Origin: Pseudomonas rhizosphaerae
Lineage (GTDB): Bacteria > Pseudomonadota > Gammaproteobacteria > Pseudomonadales > Pseudomonadaceae
DNA length: 64,000 nt
Assembly: GCF_000761155.1 (NCBI RefSeq)
Contig: NZ_CP009533.1
Span: forward strand, 2,232,001-2,296,000
Reading direction: 5' to 3'
Part shown: piece by piece, positions 49,137 to 55,969 of the stretch
Layout: every line of letters begins with the position of its first letter
Position numbering within the stretch: position 1 is the stretch's first letter
Notes under the pieces: model-generated
What the model was told of the DNA's origin: nothing
Databases searched by the model: none
The model's input: only the letters and a program-made list of their open reading frames with translations
Translations under genes and position numbers: made by a program

Positions 49137-49183
49137 GCCGTGTCACTGACACATCCCGTGCCCTGTGGTAGCCTTGCGCGTTC

Positions 49184-49349
49184 GAGGTTCTCTGCCCTGC
49201 AGAGCTAAGATGGGAACGCGGTCCAAGCCGCGGCTGCCCCCGCAACTGTAAGTGATGAAGGCTGCGCCAAGGCCACTGCGAGTGTTCGCGGGAAGGCGCC
49301 GCAGCCTCGGCCAGCACGGTCGGCATCACGAGCCAGGAGACCTGCCTCA
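49184..49349 (+). promoter_or_regulatory. Cobalamin riboswitch upstream of cobW-cobN
   Basis: A classic B12 element. GAGGTTC and GATGGGAAC open it, GGCTGCCCCCGCAACTGTAAGTG is the central core (the string CCCCGCAACTGTAA is diagnostic), and GAGCCAGGAGACCTGCCTC closes it. It occupies most of the 317-base gap before cobW and should shut down cobalt insertion genes when cobalamin is plentiful. Confidence 0.95.
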
Positions 49350-49453
49350 GCCGTTCTTTCCTATTCAACCGGGCGGGGTGATCCGGTGACGAATGCTGGC
49401 GCCTGCCGTTGCGGTGCTCGTCTCGTGCCCTGCCGCGCAATCAGGGCGACCCG

Positions 49454-50527
49454 ATGAAAACGCTGTCCAAACTACCCGTCACCATCGTCACCGGCTTCCT
49501 GGGCTCGGGCAAGACCACCTTGCTGCGGCACATGCTCGATAACGCCCAAGGCCGGCGCATCGCCGTGATCGTCAACGAATTCGGCGAGCTGGGCATCGAC
49601 GGCGAGATCCTCAAGCAATGCACCATCGGCTGCACCGAGGAAGAGGCGAACGGCCGCGTCTACGAGCTGGCCAACGGCTGCCTGTGCTGCACCGTGCAGG
49701 AAGAGTTCTTCCCGGTCATGCGCGAGCTGGTCGCCCGGCGCGCCGACCTCGACCATATTCTGATCGAAACCAGCGGCCTGGCCTTGCCCAAGCCGCTGGT
49801 GCAGGCCTTCCAGTGGCCGGAAATTCGCAGTGCCTGCACGGTCGATGCGGTCATCACCGTGGTCGACAGCCCAGCGGTGGCGGCCGGTACCTTTGCCGCA
49901 TTCCCCGACCAGGTCGACGCCCAGCGCAAGCTCGACCCCAACCTGGACCATGAGTCGCCGCTGCACGAGCTGTTCGCCGACCAACTGGCCAGCGCCGACC
50001 TGGTCATTCTCAACAAGGCCGACCTGATCGATGCCGAGGCTTTGGCGGCGGTACGCGCCGAGGTTGCCGAGGAACTGCCGGCAGCGGTCAAGGTGGTCGA
50101 GGCCAGCAGTGGTCGTTTGCCACTGGCCGTGCTGCTGGGCCTGGGCGCCGAGTCCGAGCAACACATCGACGGGCGCAAGACCCATCACGACCATCACGAA
50201 GGTGACGATCACGACGATCACGACGATCACAACCACGATGCCTTCGACTCGATCTCCATCGAGCTGCCCCAGGCCGAGGAAGCCAAGCTGTTGCAGGCGC
50301 TCAACGCCGCCGTGGTCCAGCACGGCATCCTGCGCGTCAAGGGTTTCGCGGCCATTCCGGGCAAGCCGATGCGGCTGCAGATCCAGGGTGTGGGCACCCG
50401 TTTCGACAAACACTTCGATCGCGCCTGGGGCACCGACGAAGCGCGCAGCACGCGCCTGGTGCTGATCGGTCAGGAGCTCGATGCATCCTCGCTGCAAGCC
50501 CAACTGCGCGCTGCGCTGGAAGCCTGA
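49454..50527 (+). CDS. cobW: CobW GTPase / metal chaperone
   Basis: A 357-residue G3E GTPase. Walker A GFLGSGKTT, the metal motif ANGCLCCTV (GCxCC), Walker B-like ILIETSGLALP and the nucleotide specificity motif LNKADL are all present. A histidine- and aspartate-rich stretch (about residues 238-257, including HHDHHEGDDHDDHDDH) should bind metal. CobW supplies Co(II) to the cobaltochelatase encoded by the next genes. First gene after the riboswitch. Confidence 0.94.
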   Translation: MKTLSKLPVTIVTGFLGSGKTTLLRHMLDNAQGRRIAVIVNEFGELGIDGEILKQCTIGCTEEEANGRVYELANGCLCCTVQEEFFPVMRELVARRADLDHILIETSGLALPKPLVQAFQWPEIRSACTVDAVITVVDSPAVAAGTFAAFPDQVDAQRKLDPNLDHESPLHELFADQLASADLVILNKADLIDAEALAAVRAEVAEELPAAVKVVEASSGRLPLAVLLGLGAESEQHIDGRKTHHDHHEGDDHDDHDDHNHDAFDSISIELPQAEEAKLLQALNAAVVQHGILRVKGFAAIPGKPMRLQIQGVGTRFDKHFDRAWGTDEARSTRLVLIGQELDASSLQAQLRAALEA

Positions 50528-50530
50528 CCG

Positions 50531-53500
50531 ATGCACCTGCTGAGGACCCAGCCCGGTGGCTTCGTGCCGGACGACAGCATCGCCGACCTCGGGCAGACGC
50601 CTGCCGAGCTGGTGATTCTGTGCAGTGGCGACTCGCACCTGGCGTTGCTCGCCGAGGCCTGCGGGCAACTGCCCGCCGACTATCCGAGCCTGCGCCTGGC
50701 CAACCCCATGCAGGTGCAGAACCATTCCTCGGTGGACCTTTACGTTGACCAGGTGCTGCGCCACGCCAAGGTCATCCTGATTTCCCTGCATGGCGGCATT
50801 GGCTACTGGCGCTACGGCGTCGAGCAGTTGATGCAGCTGGCCGAGCGGGGCGTGCAGGTCATCCTGGTGCCGGGCTGCGATCGCCCCGATCCCGAACTGG
50901 CCGAGCGCTGCACGGTACTGCCCGAGCAGGCCGAGCAGCTGTGGCAGTACCTGCGCCAAGGCGGCATGGAGAACGCCCGCAATCTGTTCGGCTATCTCGG
51001 CAATACCTGGTTCGGCCGCACCGAGCGCTGCGAAGCGCCTCGGGCACTGCCGCGCACGGTCATCTACCATCCAACGCGGCCCACCGCCGAGCTGGCCGAC
51101 TGGCAAGCGCAATGGCAGCCGCAGTCGCCGGTGGTAGCGCTGCTGTTCTATCGCTCGCACCTGCAGGCGGCCAACACCGGTTTCGTCGACACCTTCTGCG
51201 CCAGGTTGCAGGCAGCCGGGCTCAACCCGCTGCCGATGGCCGTGGCCAGCCTCAAGGAGGCTGCCTGTCTGGAGCAGGTCCAGGCGTGGATGGACGAGGC
51301 GGGCGCTGCAGTCATCCTCAACACCACCGGCTTTGCCCAGTCCAGCCCGGAAGCACCGCACCTGCGACCGTTTCGTCGCGACATCCCGGTGATCCAGGCC
51401 ATCTGCGCGCAAGACAACCAGGCGTTGTGGCAGGCCAGCGAGCAAGGCCTGGGCGCCCGCGACCTGGCCATGCACATCGCCTTGCCGGAGCTGGACGGAC
51501 GCATCATCAGCCGCGCCATCAGTTTCAAGGACCTGGCCTGGCACAACGAGCGCAGCCAGAGCGACGTAGTGTGCTACACGGCGCACGTCGAGCGCATGGA
51601 TTTCGTCGCCGAGCTGGCACGCAAATGGGCCGACCTGGCGCGCCTGCCCAATGCCGACAAACGTGTCGCGCTGGTGCTGGCCAACTACCCGACCCGCGAT
51701 GGCCGAATCGGCAACGGCGTCGGCCTGGACACTCCGGCAGCGGCGCTGAACATCCTGCGAGCAATGCAGCAGCAGGGCTATCCGGTGGCCGATCTGCCCG
51801 ACAGCGGCACGGCGTTGATCCATGCCTTGCTCGGCGGTGTGACCAATGACCTGGAACAGCTGGACCTGCGTCCCTGTGCCCAGAGCATGGCGCTGGACGA
51901 CTACCTCGCCGCGTTCGCCTTGCTGCCCCAGGCCAATCAGGCCGCGGTCCGTGAGCGTTGGGGCGAGCCGGAAGCCGATCCGATGCTGCGCAATGGCCGG
52001 ATGATGATCGCTGGCCTGCGCATGGGCCTGACCTTCGTCGGCATCCAACCGGCCCGTGGCTACCAGGTGGACGTCAGCGCGGTCTATCACGACCCCGACC
52101 TGGTGCCGCCCCATGGCTACCTGGCGTTCTATTTCTGGTTGCGCCACACCTATGGCGCTGATGCGCTCATCCACGTGGGCAAGCACGGCAACCTGGAGTG
52201 GCTGCCAGGCAAGGGCGTGGGCCTGTCCGAACAGTGCTGGCCCGACGCGATACTGGGGCCGATGCCCAACATCTATCCGTTCATCGTCAACGATCCAGGG
52301 GAGGGCGCACAGGCCAAGCGCCGCACCCAGGCGGTGATCATCGACCACCTGATGCCGCCGTTGACCCGTGCCGAAACCTACGGACCGCTGCGCGATCTGG
52401 AACTGCTGGCCGACGAGTATTACGACGCGCAACTGCTCGATCCGCGCCGCGCCCAGGCCCTGGAAAAGGACATTCTGGCGCTGGTCCGCGAGACTCGTAT
52501 CGACCATGAGCTGCAAATGGCCGAAGGGGCCGAGGCGGCGGTGTGGCTGCCGCGCCTGGACACCTACCTGTGCGACTTGAAGGAATCGCAGATTCGCGAC
52601 GGCCTGCACGTGTTCGGCGAATCGCCCCAGGGCCGGTTGCGCGCCGATACCCTGTTGGCGCTGCTGCGCATTCCTCGCGGCGATGGGCGCGATGCCGAGG
52701 CCAGCTTGGTGCGCGCGCTGGCCAAAGCCTTCGAGTTGGGCTTCGATCCGCTCGACTGCGACCTCGGGGCCCCCTGGAGCGGGCCGCGGCCCGCAGCCTT
52801 GGCCGAACTGACCACCGAACCGTGGCGCAGCGCCGGCGACAGCCGAGAGCGTCTCGAACTGTACGCCGCCCAGTTGATCGAGCAAGCACTGAGCGGCCCG
52901 GTAACCCTGGGCGAAGGCTTCGATGCCGTTCAGCTCATCCTGGAGCACCTGCGCGACACCGTGGCGCCGCGCCTGGATGCCTGCGGACCGGCCGAGATGC
53001 ACGGCCTGCTGGCCGCCCTGGCAGGCCGTTTCGTGCCCGCCGGGCCGAGCGGGGCGCCCAGCCGTGGGCGTCTCGACGTGCTGCCCACGGGTCGCAATTT
53101 CTTTTCCGTGGACGTGCGCAACCTGCCGACCACCACCGCTTGGCGGATCGGCTTCGCCTCGGCCAACCTGATCCTGGAGCGGCACCTGCAGGACCATGGC
53201 GATCACCTGCGCCAGCTGGGCCTGTCGGTCTGGGGCACGGCGACCATGCGCACCGGTGGCGACGACATTGCCCAAGCCATGGCGCTGATGGGTGTACGCC
53301 CGGTGTGGGCCACCGGCAGCCAGCGCGTGGACGATTTCGAGATTCTGCCGCTGAGTCTCCTCGATCGCCCACGGGTGGACGTGACCCTGCGAGTGTCCGG
53401 CTTCTTCCGCGATGCCTTCTCCAATCTGCTGCGCCTGTTCGATGCAGCGGTGCAGGCGGTGGCTGCGCTCGACGAGCCGGAGGACCTCAACCCGCTAGCG

Positions 53501-54283
53501 GCCAAGGTGCGCAGCGAACAGGGTCAGTTGCTGGCCGAGGGTGTCTCGGCGGAGCAGGCTGCACGCGAAGCCGGCTGGCGCATCTTCGGCGCCAAGCCGG
53601 GTGCCTACGGGGCCGGTGTCCAGGGGGCCATCGACGGTCGCCTGTGGCAGACCCGTGAGGACCTTGCCGAGGCTTATCTGAACTGGGGTGCCTATGCCTA
53701 TGGCGCGGATGACGAAGGCACCGCCGCACGCGCGCCGTTCGCGCGTCGCCTGGGCCAGGTCCAGGCAGTGCTGCAGAACCAGGACAACCGCGAGCACGAC
53801 CTGCTCGATTCCAACGACTACTACCAGTTCCAGGGCGGCATGCTCGCTGCCGTGGAAACCCTCAGCGGGCAGACCACCGCCAGCTACCATGGCGACCACA
53901 GCCAGCCTGACGTGCCGCGCGTGCGCACCCTGAAGGAAGAGCTGAACCGGGTGGTGCGGGCCCGCGCGGCCAACCCGAAATGGATCGAAGGGGTCAAGCG
54001 GCACGGCTACAAGGGCGCCTTCGAACTGGCCGCGACGGTCGATAACCTGTTTGCCTTCGATGCCACCACCCACCTGATCGACGATCACCAGTACGCCTTG
54101 CTCACCGATGCCTACCTGCTCGACCCGGACACCCGTGGCTTCCTGCAGGAGCACAACCCTGCGGCCCTGCGCGACATGGCCGAACGCCTGCTCGAGGCTC
54201 AGCAACGTGGCCTGTGGGCCGAGCCCGGTGACTACCGTCAGGCCGTGGAAGACCTGCTGCTGGATACCGAAGAAGATGCCTGA
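50531..54283 (+). CDS. cobN: Cobaltochelatase large subunit CobN
   Basis: A 1250-residue CobN/magnesium-chelatase-H protein of full family length. Recognisable blocks are [16 protein letters not shown], the hallmark [40 protein letters not shown] and the C-terminal [21 protein letters not shown]. It binds hydrogenobyrinate a,c-diamide and inserts Co(II), driven by an AAA+ ATPase. It starts 4 bases after cobW and is followed by the chlI/chlD gene. Confidence 0.96.
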   Translation: [1250 protein letters not shown]

Positions 54284-54296
54284 AGAGAACCCTGCA

Positions 54297-55313
54297 ATGA
54301 CCGACACCGTGCACTTTCCGCTGGCCGCTGTGGTGGCCGCCGATTCGCTGAAGCTGGCGCTGTGTCTGGCAGCCATCGACCCGCGCATCGGTGGGGTGTT
54401 GATCGAAGGGCCGCGGGGCATGGCCAAGAGCACGCTGGCGCGGGGGCTGGCCGACCTGCTTGCCGATGGCCAGTTGGTGACCTTGCCACTGGGTGCCAGC
54501 GAAGACCGTCTGGTCGGCACGCTGGACCTGGAGGCCGCACTGGGCGAGGGGCGGGCACGCTTTTCGCCCGGTGTGCTGGCCAGGGCCGACGGCGGGGTGC
54601 TGTATGTGGATGAGGTCAACCTGCTCGCCGACCATTTGGTGGACCTGCTGCTGGACGTTGCCGCCAGTGGCGTCAACCGCATCGAGCGTGACGGTATTTC
54701 CCATGCTCATCCAGCGCGCTTCGTACTGATCGGCACCATGAATCCCGAGGAAGGCGAGTTGCGCCCGCAGCTGCTCGACCGGTTCGGTCTGAACATCGCC
54801 CTGGATGGCCAGCCGGCCCCGGCCGAACGCGGCCAGATCATTCGCCGCCGCCTGGCGTTCGACAGCGACCCCCAGGGCTTCTGCGAGCAATGGGCCCCGG
54901 CCCAGGCAGCGCTGCGGTTGCGTTGCCAACAGGCACGGGAACGCCTCGAATCGATCCCGCTGAGCGACCAGGCCCTGGAAGCCATTACCACCCGCTGTTT
55001 CGCCGAAGGCGTGGACGGCCTGCGTGCCGATCTGGTGTGGCTGCGCGCGGCACGGGCGCACGCAGCGTGGCGCGGCGGCGACGATATTCTGGAGGAAGAC
55101 GTTGAAGCGGTGGCCGAGTTCGCCTTGCGCCACCGTCGCCAGGCACCACGCAAGCCGCAGCCCCAGCGAGAATCGAAGCCGGCGCCACCGCCCCCCGCTG
55201 AGAGCGCCGCGCAACCCTCTGATCCGGGTCAGGGCCAGTGGGGCGACATGCCCGCTCAGGCCGTTCCGGTAGGTGACCGCCGCAGCGTGCCGAGCTGGCC
55301 AAAAAAGCCCTGA
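54297..55313 (+). CDS. ChlI-like AAA+ ATPase (small cobaltochelatase subunit), zero frame of a frameshift gene
   Basis: A 338-residue AAA+ protein. Walker A is in EGPRGMAKST, LPLGASEDRLVGTLDLEAAL is the ChlI-specific segment, Walker B is LLYVDEVNLL-like (VLYVDEVNLL), and sensor 1 is IGTMNPEEGELRPQLLDRFGL. Residues from about 280 are a proline-rich linker normally seen between the AAA+ and VWA parts of ChlD. The zero frame stops six residues after SVPSWP, directly at a slippery heptamer, so termination gives a ChlI-type subunit and -1 shifting gives a ChlD-type subunit. The start follows an AGAG site; an upstream ATG at 54276 overlaps cobN. Confidence 0.88.
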   Translation: MTDTVHFPLAAVVAADSLKLALCLAAIDPRIGGVLIEGPRGMAKSTLARGLADLLADGQLVTLPLGASEDRLVGTLDLEAALGEGRARFSPGVLARADGGVLYVDEVNLLADHLVDLLLDVAASGVNRIERDGISHAHPARFVLIGTMNPEEGELRPQLLDRFGLNIALDGQPAPAERGQIIRRRLAFDSDPQGFCEQWAPAQAALRLRCQQARERLESIPLSDQALEAITTRCFAEGVDGLRADLVWLRAARAHAAWRGGDDILEEDVEAVAEFALRHRRQAPRKPQPQRESKPAPPPPAESAAQPSDPGQGQWGDMPAQAVPVGDRRSVPSWPKKP

Positions 55314-55340
55314 GCATCCGTCCGCGCCCAGCGGATGCTC
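55301..55340 (+). promoter_or_regulatory. Programmed -1 ribosomal frameshift signal
   Basis: The heptamer A AAA AAG (55301-55307) is exactly in phase with the zero frame (codons CCA AAA AAG CCC TGA). Four bases later GAGCATCCG (55312-55320) and CGGATGCTC (55332-55340) form a perfect 9-bp stem with an 11-base loop, covering most of the zero-frame stop codon. This is the arrangement of the E. coli dnaX frameshift site. The -1 frame continues as KKALSIRPRP into the VWA region. Confidence 0.85.
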
Positions 55341-55969
55341 GGCCCGGCCAGGGCAACCTCGAACAAGGGCGACAAGGCGCGGCGCGTGCGGCGTCGAGCG
55401 GTACGCTCGACTGGCCGGCGACCCTGCTGCAAGGACGACCGCGTCAGCGCGATGACCTGCGCTGGCAGCAACGTCGCAGCGCGGCGCAGCAACTGTGGCT
55501 GGTGGTGGTCGACGCTTCTGCCTCGACGCACCGTCACGGCGCTCTGGCCGAGGCCAAGGGCGTGCTGGCGCAGGTCTTCGACGATGCCTACCGGCAACGC
55601 GCACGGCTGGCGTTGTTGACCGCCAGTGGCAGCGGACCGATCTGGCAATGCCACGGCCTGAAAGCCTCGGCAGCACTGCAGCCCTGGCTCGAGGCACTGG
55701 GCGCAGGGGGCGGTACGCCATTGCTGGCGGCATTGGCCGAGGCCGACGATTGGCTCAGGCAACGCGCGCGGCGCTATCCGCAGGAGGCACAGCGCTGCCT
55801 GGTGTTCACCGACGGGCGTCTGAAGTCCCTTGAAGGCGTAGCCCCGCTGGCCTGCCCGGCGTTATTGCTGGACATGGAAATGAGCCCGATCCGACTGGGC
55901 CGCGCCCGTACCCTGGCGGCTGCCCTGGGCGCCGAGTATCAACATCTGGAAGATCTGCCACGGGCCTAG
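55307..55969 (+). CDS. ChlD-type VWA region, translated by -1 frameshift from the upstream ChlI frame
   Basis: The -1 frame from 55307 encodes 220 residues: a basic linker (GRQGAARAA, LDWPATLLQGRPRQRDDLRW) as in ChlD, then a VWA domain with the MIDAS motif VDASAST (D-x-S-x-S), the second site GGGTPL and FTDGRLKSL. The frame is open back only to a stop at 55274 and offers no ATG before the domain; GTG codons near 55502 lie inside its first strand. So it is best read as the C-terminal half of a 557-residue ChlI-ChlD fusion. Confidence 0.82.
   Translation, partial: ALSIRPRPADARPGQGNLEQGRQGAARAASSGTLDWPATLLQGRPRQRDDLRWQQRRSAAQQLWLVVVDASASTHRHGALAEAKGVLAQVFDDAYRQRARLALLTASGSGPIWQCHGLKASAALQPWLEALGAGGGTPLLAALAEADDWLRQRARRYPQEAQRCLVFTDGRLKSLEGVAPLACPALLLDMEMSPIRLGRARTLAAALGAEYQHLEDLPRA

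Follow-up and report, generated by a model that had tools for sequence, protein, structure and literature searches.

A chlI-chlD gene beside cobN in Pseudomonas rhizosphaerae carries a conserved -1 frameshift signal

In dnaX, programmed frameshifting takes place at an A AAA AAG heptamer with a stem-loop downstream of it. For the magnesium-chelatase genes, the portion of PMC3711429 (2013) used here lists members with a -1 frameshift, Pseudomonas among them, and reports frameshifting of 63, 40 and 10% measured in E. coli for three genes of the family; the corresponding cassettes contain 11, 9 and 7 A, efficiency declining as the run shortens, and the RefSeq annotation of such genes is described there as two adjacent genes. 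A two-subunit explanation for fs-chlD is given in PMC9227772 (2022), and the one frameshift passage in the portion of PMC7242693 used here concerns another gene. A first-pass annotation of the present locus had stated that chlD frameshifting was proposed in the literature, which is indeed the case, as papers exist and PMC3711429, in the same portion, names Pseudomonas. Given that PMC3711429 and PMC9227772 describe fs-chlD, the frameshift in this gene is very probably real and already known, and a published recoding event in B12 synthesis is confirmed here for this strain and the relatives examined.

The locus shares with fs-chlD genes the identity of the gene, the -1 direction, an A-rich slippery site, a downstream structure and the two-subunit explanation, and differs from them in the exact species and perhaps in details of the Pseudomonas stem. 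In addition, the tested cassettes carry 7-11 A residues whereas the run here is six A and a G, and the slip rate at this gene may therefore be lower than in the published cassettes with their 11, 9 and 7 A. The title of a 2020 paper by Antonov, cited in PMC9227772, makes the claim for fs-chlD as well. With dnaX the locus has in common the heptamer A AAA AAG and the downstream stem-loop, but the shifted product of dnaX is the short one, the shifted product here would be the long one, and by eye there is no Shine-Dalgarno-like stimulator just upstream of this heptamer. As in the CobNST cobaltochelatase, a CobN large subunit stands with an AAA+ and VWA-bearing partner; CobNST, however, has dedicated CobS and CobT, and the genome studied here encodes neither as judged by profile matches (no match to CobT or CobS at E 0.001). 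The AAA+ and VWA domains are related by sequence to those of the Mg-chelatase subunits ChlI/BchI and BchD (PDB 8osf, 6l8d and 1g8p; 2x31 for the VWA part), but the neighbouring large subunit here is CobN and the P-loop reads GPRGMAKS.

The window, that is, the whole stretch of 64,000 nucleotides that was analysed, comes from a 4.685-Mb assembly. Within it a cobalamin riboswitch is followed by a cobW-like ORF, cobN and then the frameshifted gene, and the features in window positions are:

49168..49363, plus strand: cobalamin riboswitch aptamer, 5' of the cobW-like ORF, cobN and chlI/D (Rfam RF00174, 108.3 bits, gathering threshold 31.5)
49409..50527, plus strand: ORF that we take to be a cobW-like GTPase from the look of its sequence (bounds as in the ORF list)
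50531..54283, plus strand: cobN, large cobaltochelatase subunit, 1250 aa (TIGR02257, 1717 bits, cut-off 822.05)
54297..55313, plus strand: zero-frame product, a ChlI-like AAA+ subunit of 338 aa with an ATG start (ORF; matches to AAA_lid_2, AAA_5 and Mg_chelatase)
55301..55307, plus strand: slippery heptamer A AAA AAG, in phase X XXY YYZ (sequence; homologue comparison)
55311..55313, plus strand: zero-frame TGA stop, one codon 3' of the heptamer (sequence; homologue comparison)
55307..55969, plus strand: -1 frame extension of 220 aa, a linker and a VWA domain with MIDAS (DASAS) (matches to VWA_2 and TIGR02442)
55312..55340, plus strand: putative stimulatory stem-loop with a perfect 9-bp stem, extendable at its base (sequence, fold prediction, homologue stems)

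We hold with high confidence that this gene is an fs-chlD for a CobN-type cobaltochelatase of aerobic B12 synthesis and that it gives two products by -1 slippage. Part of the ribosomes would terminate at the TGA at 55311 and release the ChlI-like AAA+ subunit, and the others, aided by the stem-loop just downstream, would move back by one base at A AAA AAG and continue into a ChlI-ChlD fusion with the VWA domain; both products would then make up the ATPase component that powers CobN as it inserts cobalt. The inferred parts of this scheme are that slippage occurs in P. rhizosphaerae, how efficient it is, and what each product does.

The sequence bears out the first-pass reading that the ChlI-like frame ends CCA AAA AAG CCC TGA with an in-phase heptamer at 55301-55307, and that the -1 frame runs without a stop through a VWA domain with a MIDAS motif; this frame has an upstream stop at 55274 and is then open to the stop at 55967-55969, so that the slippage product would be a fusion of 557 aa. 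VWA_2 matches the -1 part from its residue 65 (position 55499) onwards, with 29.9 bits against a cut-off of 27. TIGR02442 (putative cobaltochelatase) has a curated cut-off of 779.45 bits that refers to the whole protein, and the halves were scored apart here, giving 412.8 bits for the zero-frame product, with the best stretch at profile positions 88-339 of 641, and 70 bits for the -1 part at positions 458-641. The gene is built as fs-chlD genes are, with a ChlI-like AAA+ frame, then a VWA frame in -1, and an A-rich slippery site in phase where the frames overlap. AAAAAAG occurs four times on the two strands of the window against 1.84 expected, a count reached in 11 of 100 shuffles; the heptamer by itself is not rare, and the excess over chance lies in the constancy of its phase, position and surroundings among homologues. 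The P-loop of the 338-aa protein occupies residues 38-45 and has Ala where the usual motif has its last Gly; the P-loop with this Ala variant was matched in 216 of the 221 sequences compared below.

The nearest ChlI relatives found are in genomes of the same genus (93 and 92% identity), and 374 of the 398 same-genus genomes searched contain the ChlI part with an E-value of 1e-40 or below. We read the site in loci from 140 same-genus genomes, the source genome included, and in 80 named loci, two sets that overlap; the named loci are the best 80 of at least 591 confirmed, and 64 of them are named Pseudomonas. Among the 221 sequences with a ChlI match, the window included, the VWA part lies in the -1 frame relative to ChlI in 201, in frame in 12 and in +1 in one, and there is no VWA match in seven, where contigs end or the sequence is masked (L175). 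Removal of identical genes left 189 distinct -1 genes, counting the window's own. What the sequences show directly is the frameshift signal, how well it is conserved, and selection on both halves as coding sequence. The A run has the same codon phase in all 189 genes, and it reads A AAA AAG in 188 and A AAA AAA in L181, from Caballeronia. A zero-frame stop lies one codon past the heptamer in 186 of the 189 (185 of the 188 A AAA AAG genes and L181), and none of these genes showed a second in-phase A AAA AAG in its ChlI frame ahead of the site. The alignment across relatives that the first-pass annotation had proposed as a check thus comes out in its favour for heptamer, stop position and broken frame in the loci examined. 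In L138 the stop follows the heptamer directly, with the slippery site and the broken frame kept. L007 and L017 have CAG in place of the usual TAG, which puts their stop 18 nt further on, with heptamer, stem sequence and broken frame kept; these two are natural variants suited to reporter work.

An ordinary in-frame ChlI-ChlD gene disrupted by faulty sequencing or by a recent frameshift mutation would suit the position of the break at a homopolymer, and broken genes do exist among the relatives. In L219 ChlI is in two pieces and lacks the heptamer, in a genome that is 86% complete; in L220, the +1 case, ChlI is in three pieces with five A at the site, and the cobN of that genome is itself in three pieces. 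That 188 of 189 distinct genes are broken identically at this heptamer, and that both parts are under purifying selection, make such an origin of the broken frame here extremely improbable, and error or pseudogene was rejected on the conservation of heptamer and frame break in the 189 genes. Only two of the 12 in-frame sequences, L212 and L219, belong to the genus; in L212 the heptamer and hairpin sequence are kept, and the ChlI match ends early, the frame breaking before the heptamer. The departures in L212, L219 and L220 could be assembly errors or decay.

Codon position 3 is the most divergent in 182 of 182 comparisons, in the ChlI part and the -1 part alike, and the median identity to the 182 other genes is 77% in the ChlI part and 61% in the -1 part. 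Against L003, dN is 0.044 and dS 0.656 in the ChlI part, and dN is 0.081 and dS 0.834 in the -1 part, where dN is below dS in all pairs computed. Based on the position-3 divergence and on dN below dS, the -1 half is a maintained coding sequence.

RNA polymerase could slip on the A run and give a mixed mRNA pool instead of ribosomal slippage, and the homopolymer is there; ribosomal slippage is nevertheless the better fit to a codon phase that is strictly kept, to the G at the end of the run and to the nearby downstream stem, and six A are few for transcriptional slippage. We regard polymerase slippage as very improbable. A second possibility is that no fusion is made and the VWA protein is translated separately from ChlI, from a start of its own or by reinitiation. 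The first-pass claim that the VWA frame lacks a start codon before the domain holds in the window, where the earliest ATG, GTG or TTG is the GTG at 55502, inside the VWA domain, but it does not extend to the homologues: 172 of 184 have some ATG, GTG or TTG at least 20 codons before the MIDAS (five more had no recognisable MIDAS), such a start has an SD-like 4-mer in 40 of the 184, and 96 have a TTG 29 codons before the MIDAS. Against separate initiation, only seven of the 184 combine an ATG or GTG with an SD-like 4-mer of the stricter kind, no start position upstream of the domain is common to all homologues, and the conserved heptamer would be left unexplained. Given the counts of start positions and SD-like motifs, an independent start for the VWA protein was set aside as unlikely, and two separate proteins without a fusion are, in our estimate, a very improbable outcome of this gene.

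Ribosomal -1 slippage in fs-chlD genes is accompanied by a downstream RNA structure, and one is present here, with a putative stimulatory role. The perfect 9-bp hairpin noted in the first-pass annotation four bases after the heptamer is there, its stem GAGCATCCG/CGGATGCTC beginning at 55312, 4 nt past the heptamer, and the predicted fold adds weaker pairs at its base. The 42 nt 3' of the heptamer fold at -19.7 kcal/mol (z -2.53), a value equalled by 2 of 200 dinucleotide shuffles, and 33 of 514 other 42-nt windows of the gene fold equally or more stably; within its own gene the hairpin is strong, not extreme. Across the 189 -1 genes, the 42 nt starting 3 nt past the heptamer have a mean of -25.4 kcal/mol against -12.9 kcal/mol elsewhere in the same genes, and this region ranks in the lowest 1% of its own gene in 111, in the lowest 5% in 135 and above the lowest 10% in 30. 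A perfect stem of at least 7 bp (G-U allowed) is found 2-7 nt past the heptamer in 179 of the 189 genes, and the best stem starts 5 nt past it in 114 and 6 nt past it in 68. Judged from these predicted folds, the check that the first-pass annotation proposed also speaks in its favour for the hairpin, in that a stem following a short spacer is widely kept, but not in every homologue.

The stem pair most variable on both sides was followed in 170 genes (the 189 minus 6 off the tree and 13 unreadable) and is C-G in 97, U-A in 44, U-G in 29 and C-A in none; about 25 C-A would be expected were the sides independent, an estimate that ignores kinship. The tree places 13 changes on one side of this pair against 6 on the other; among independent pairs the stem sides never move oppositely, yet the covariation is not significant (median p 0.5). 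The substitutions are consistent with a paired stem (no forbidden pair in 170 genes) but without significance once kinship is allowed for. The five inner positions next to the variable pair are paired in 167, 161, 159, 121 and 155 of 173 genes, and with values from 121 to 167 the inner stem is less strict.

The source genome has cobN and lacks a separate small-subunit gene, as do fs-chlD genomes. Its one further ChlI match is the AAA+ ORF L002, at 30% identity, which scores far below every chelatase cut-off. Among the named loci longer than 5.8 kb, 69 of 79 have a cobN match, and the ten without one are nine in-frame loci and L164. Ten in-frame sequences lie outside Pseudomonas, in Neptuniibacter (2), Motiliproteus (2), Marinomonas, a Cellvibrionales MAG, Psychromonas, Vreelandella, a Granulosicoccus MAG and Mycobacterium, and L175 (Litchfieldella), where the sequence is masked, is presumed to be in frame. 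Nine in-frame genomes were searched, with the presumed one of L175 included and the two MAGs left out, and each of the nine gave a CobN match above the cut-off (the gene of G400, from Marinomonas, is in two pieces). In seven of the nine no second ChlI reaches E 1e-10, and G399 and G405 have a second ChlI match only at 32 and 31%. A strong CobS-like match, below the curated cut-off, is found in four of the nine, one of them with an internal stop, and is absent in five. By these ChlI and CobS searches, G398, G400, G402 and G404 apparently have only CobN and a single in-frame ChlI-ChlD gene, and these four either make the short product otherwise or have no strict need of a separate short subunit. 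Caballeronia (G408), by comparison, has the frameshifted gene plus a strong CobS-like match.

A reversed, dnaX-like signal, in which the slip would give the short product, was sought in the 11 in-frame-type loci, and no in-phase A AAA AAN was found there, L175 being masked at that place. Runs of six A occur in other phases in five of the 11 (L168, L171, L173, L174 and L176), and other X XXY YYZ heptamers are scattered among them.

That the in-frame CobN relatives mostly lack a separate small subunit weakens the case for an obligatory short product, and the need for this product is less settled than the frameshift itself. The first-pass annotation had proposed that the gene supplies both subunits for the adjacent CobN; the frameshift and fusion in this proposal are supported, and the short product as a required subunit would go beyond them as an inference. 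Since a single AAA+ protein apparently suffices in relatives that combine CobN with an in-frame ChlI-ChlD, the frameshift in Pseudomonas may mainly set the ratio of ring subunits and not supply an indispensable small one, with the riboswitch setting the total. We consider this unlikely; were it true, the short product would be a tuning device with its dose set by the slip rate. The alignment, contrasted with the in-frame relatives, offers a natural comparison for the role of the short product.

Some of the same-genus genomes have no ChlI match within the E 1e-40 threshold. Twenty of these 24 were checked for cobN: 12 have no match, seven have CobN-like matches that are partial and divergent only, and G273 has a full cobN whose end lies 92 bases from the contig end. 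In G060, G082, G180, G185, G242, G260 and G317, where the gene is absent, an open frame of 1408-1491 aa encodes a divergent CobN-like protein, and nothing passes the family cut-off for ChlI-ChlD; the frames in these seven genomes are perhaps a CobN homologue with another role. At L062 (G176:C1, a single-contig genome of the same genus), the cobN match spans 2217545-2221285 and chlI begins at 2221292, with no stop between cobN and the ChlI part, so that the open frame comprises 1582 aa. Together with the frameshift this could give a CobN-ChlI-ChlD chain, or else it could reflect an indel error.
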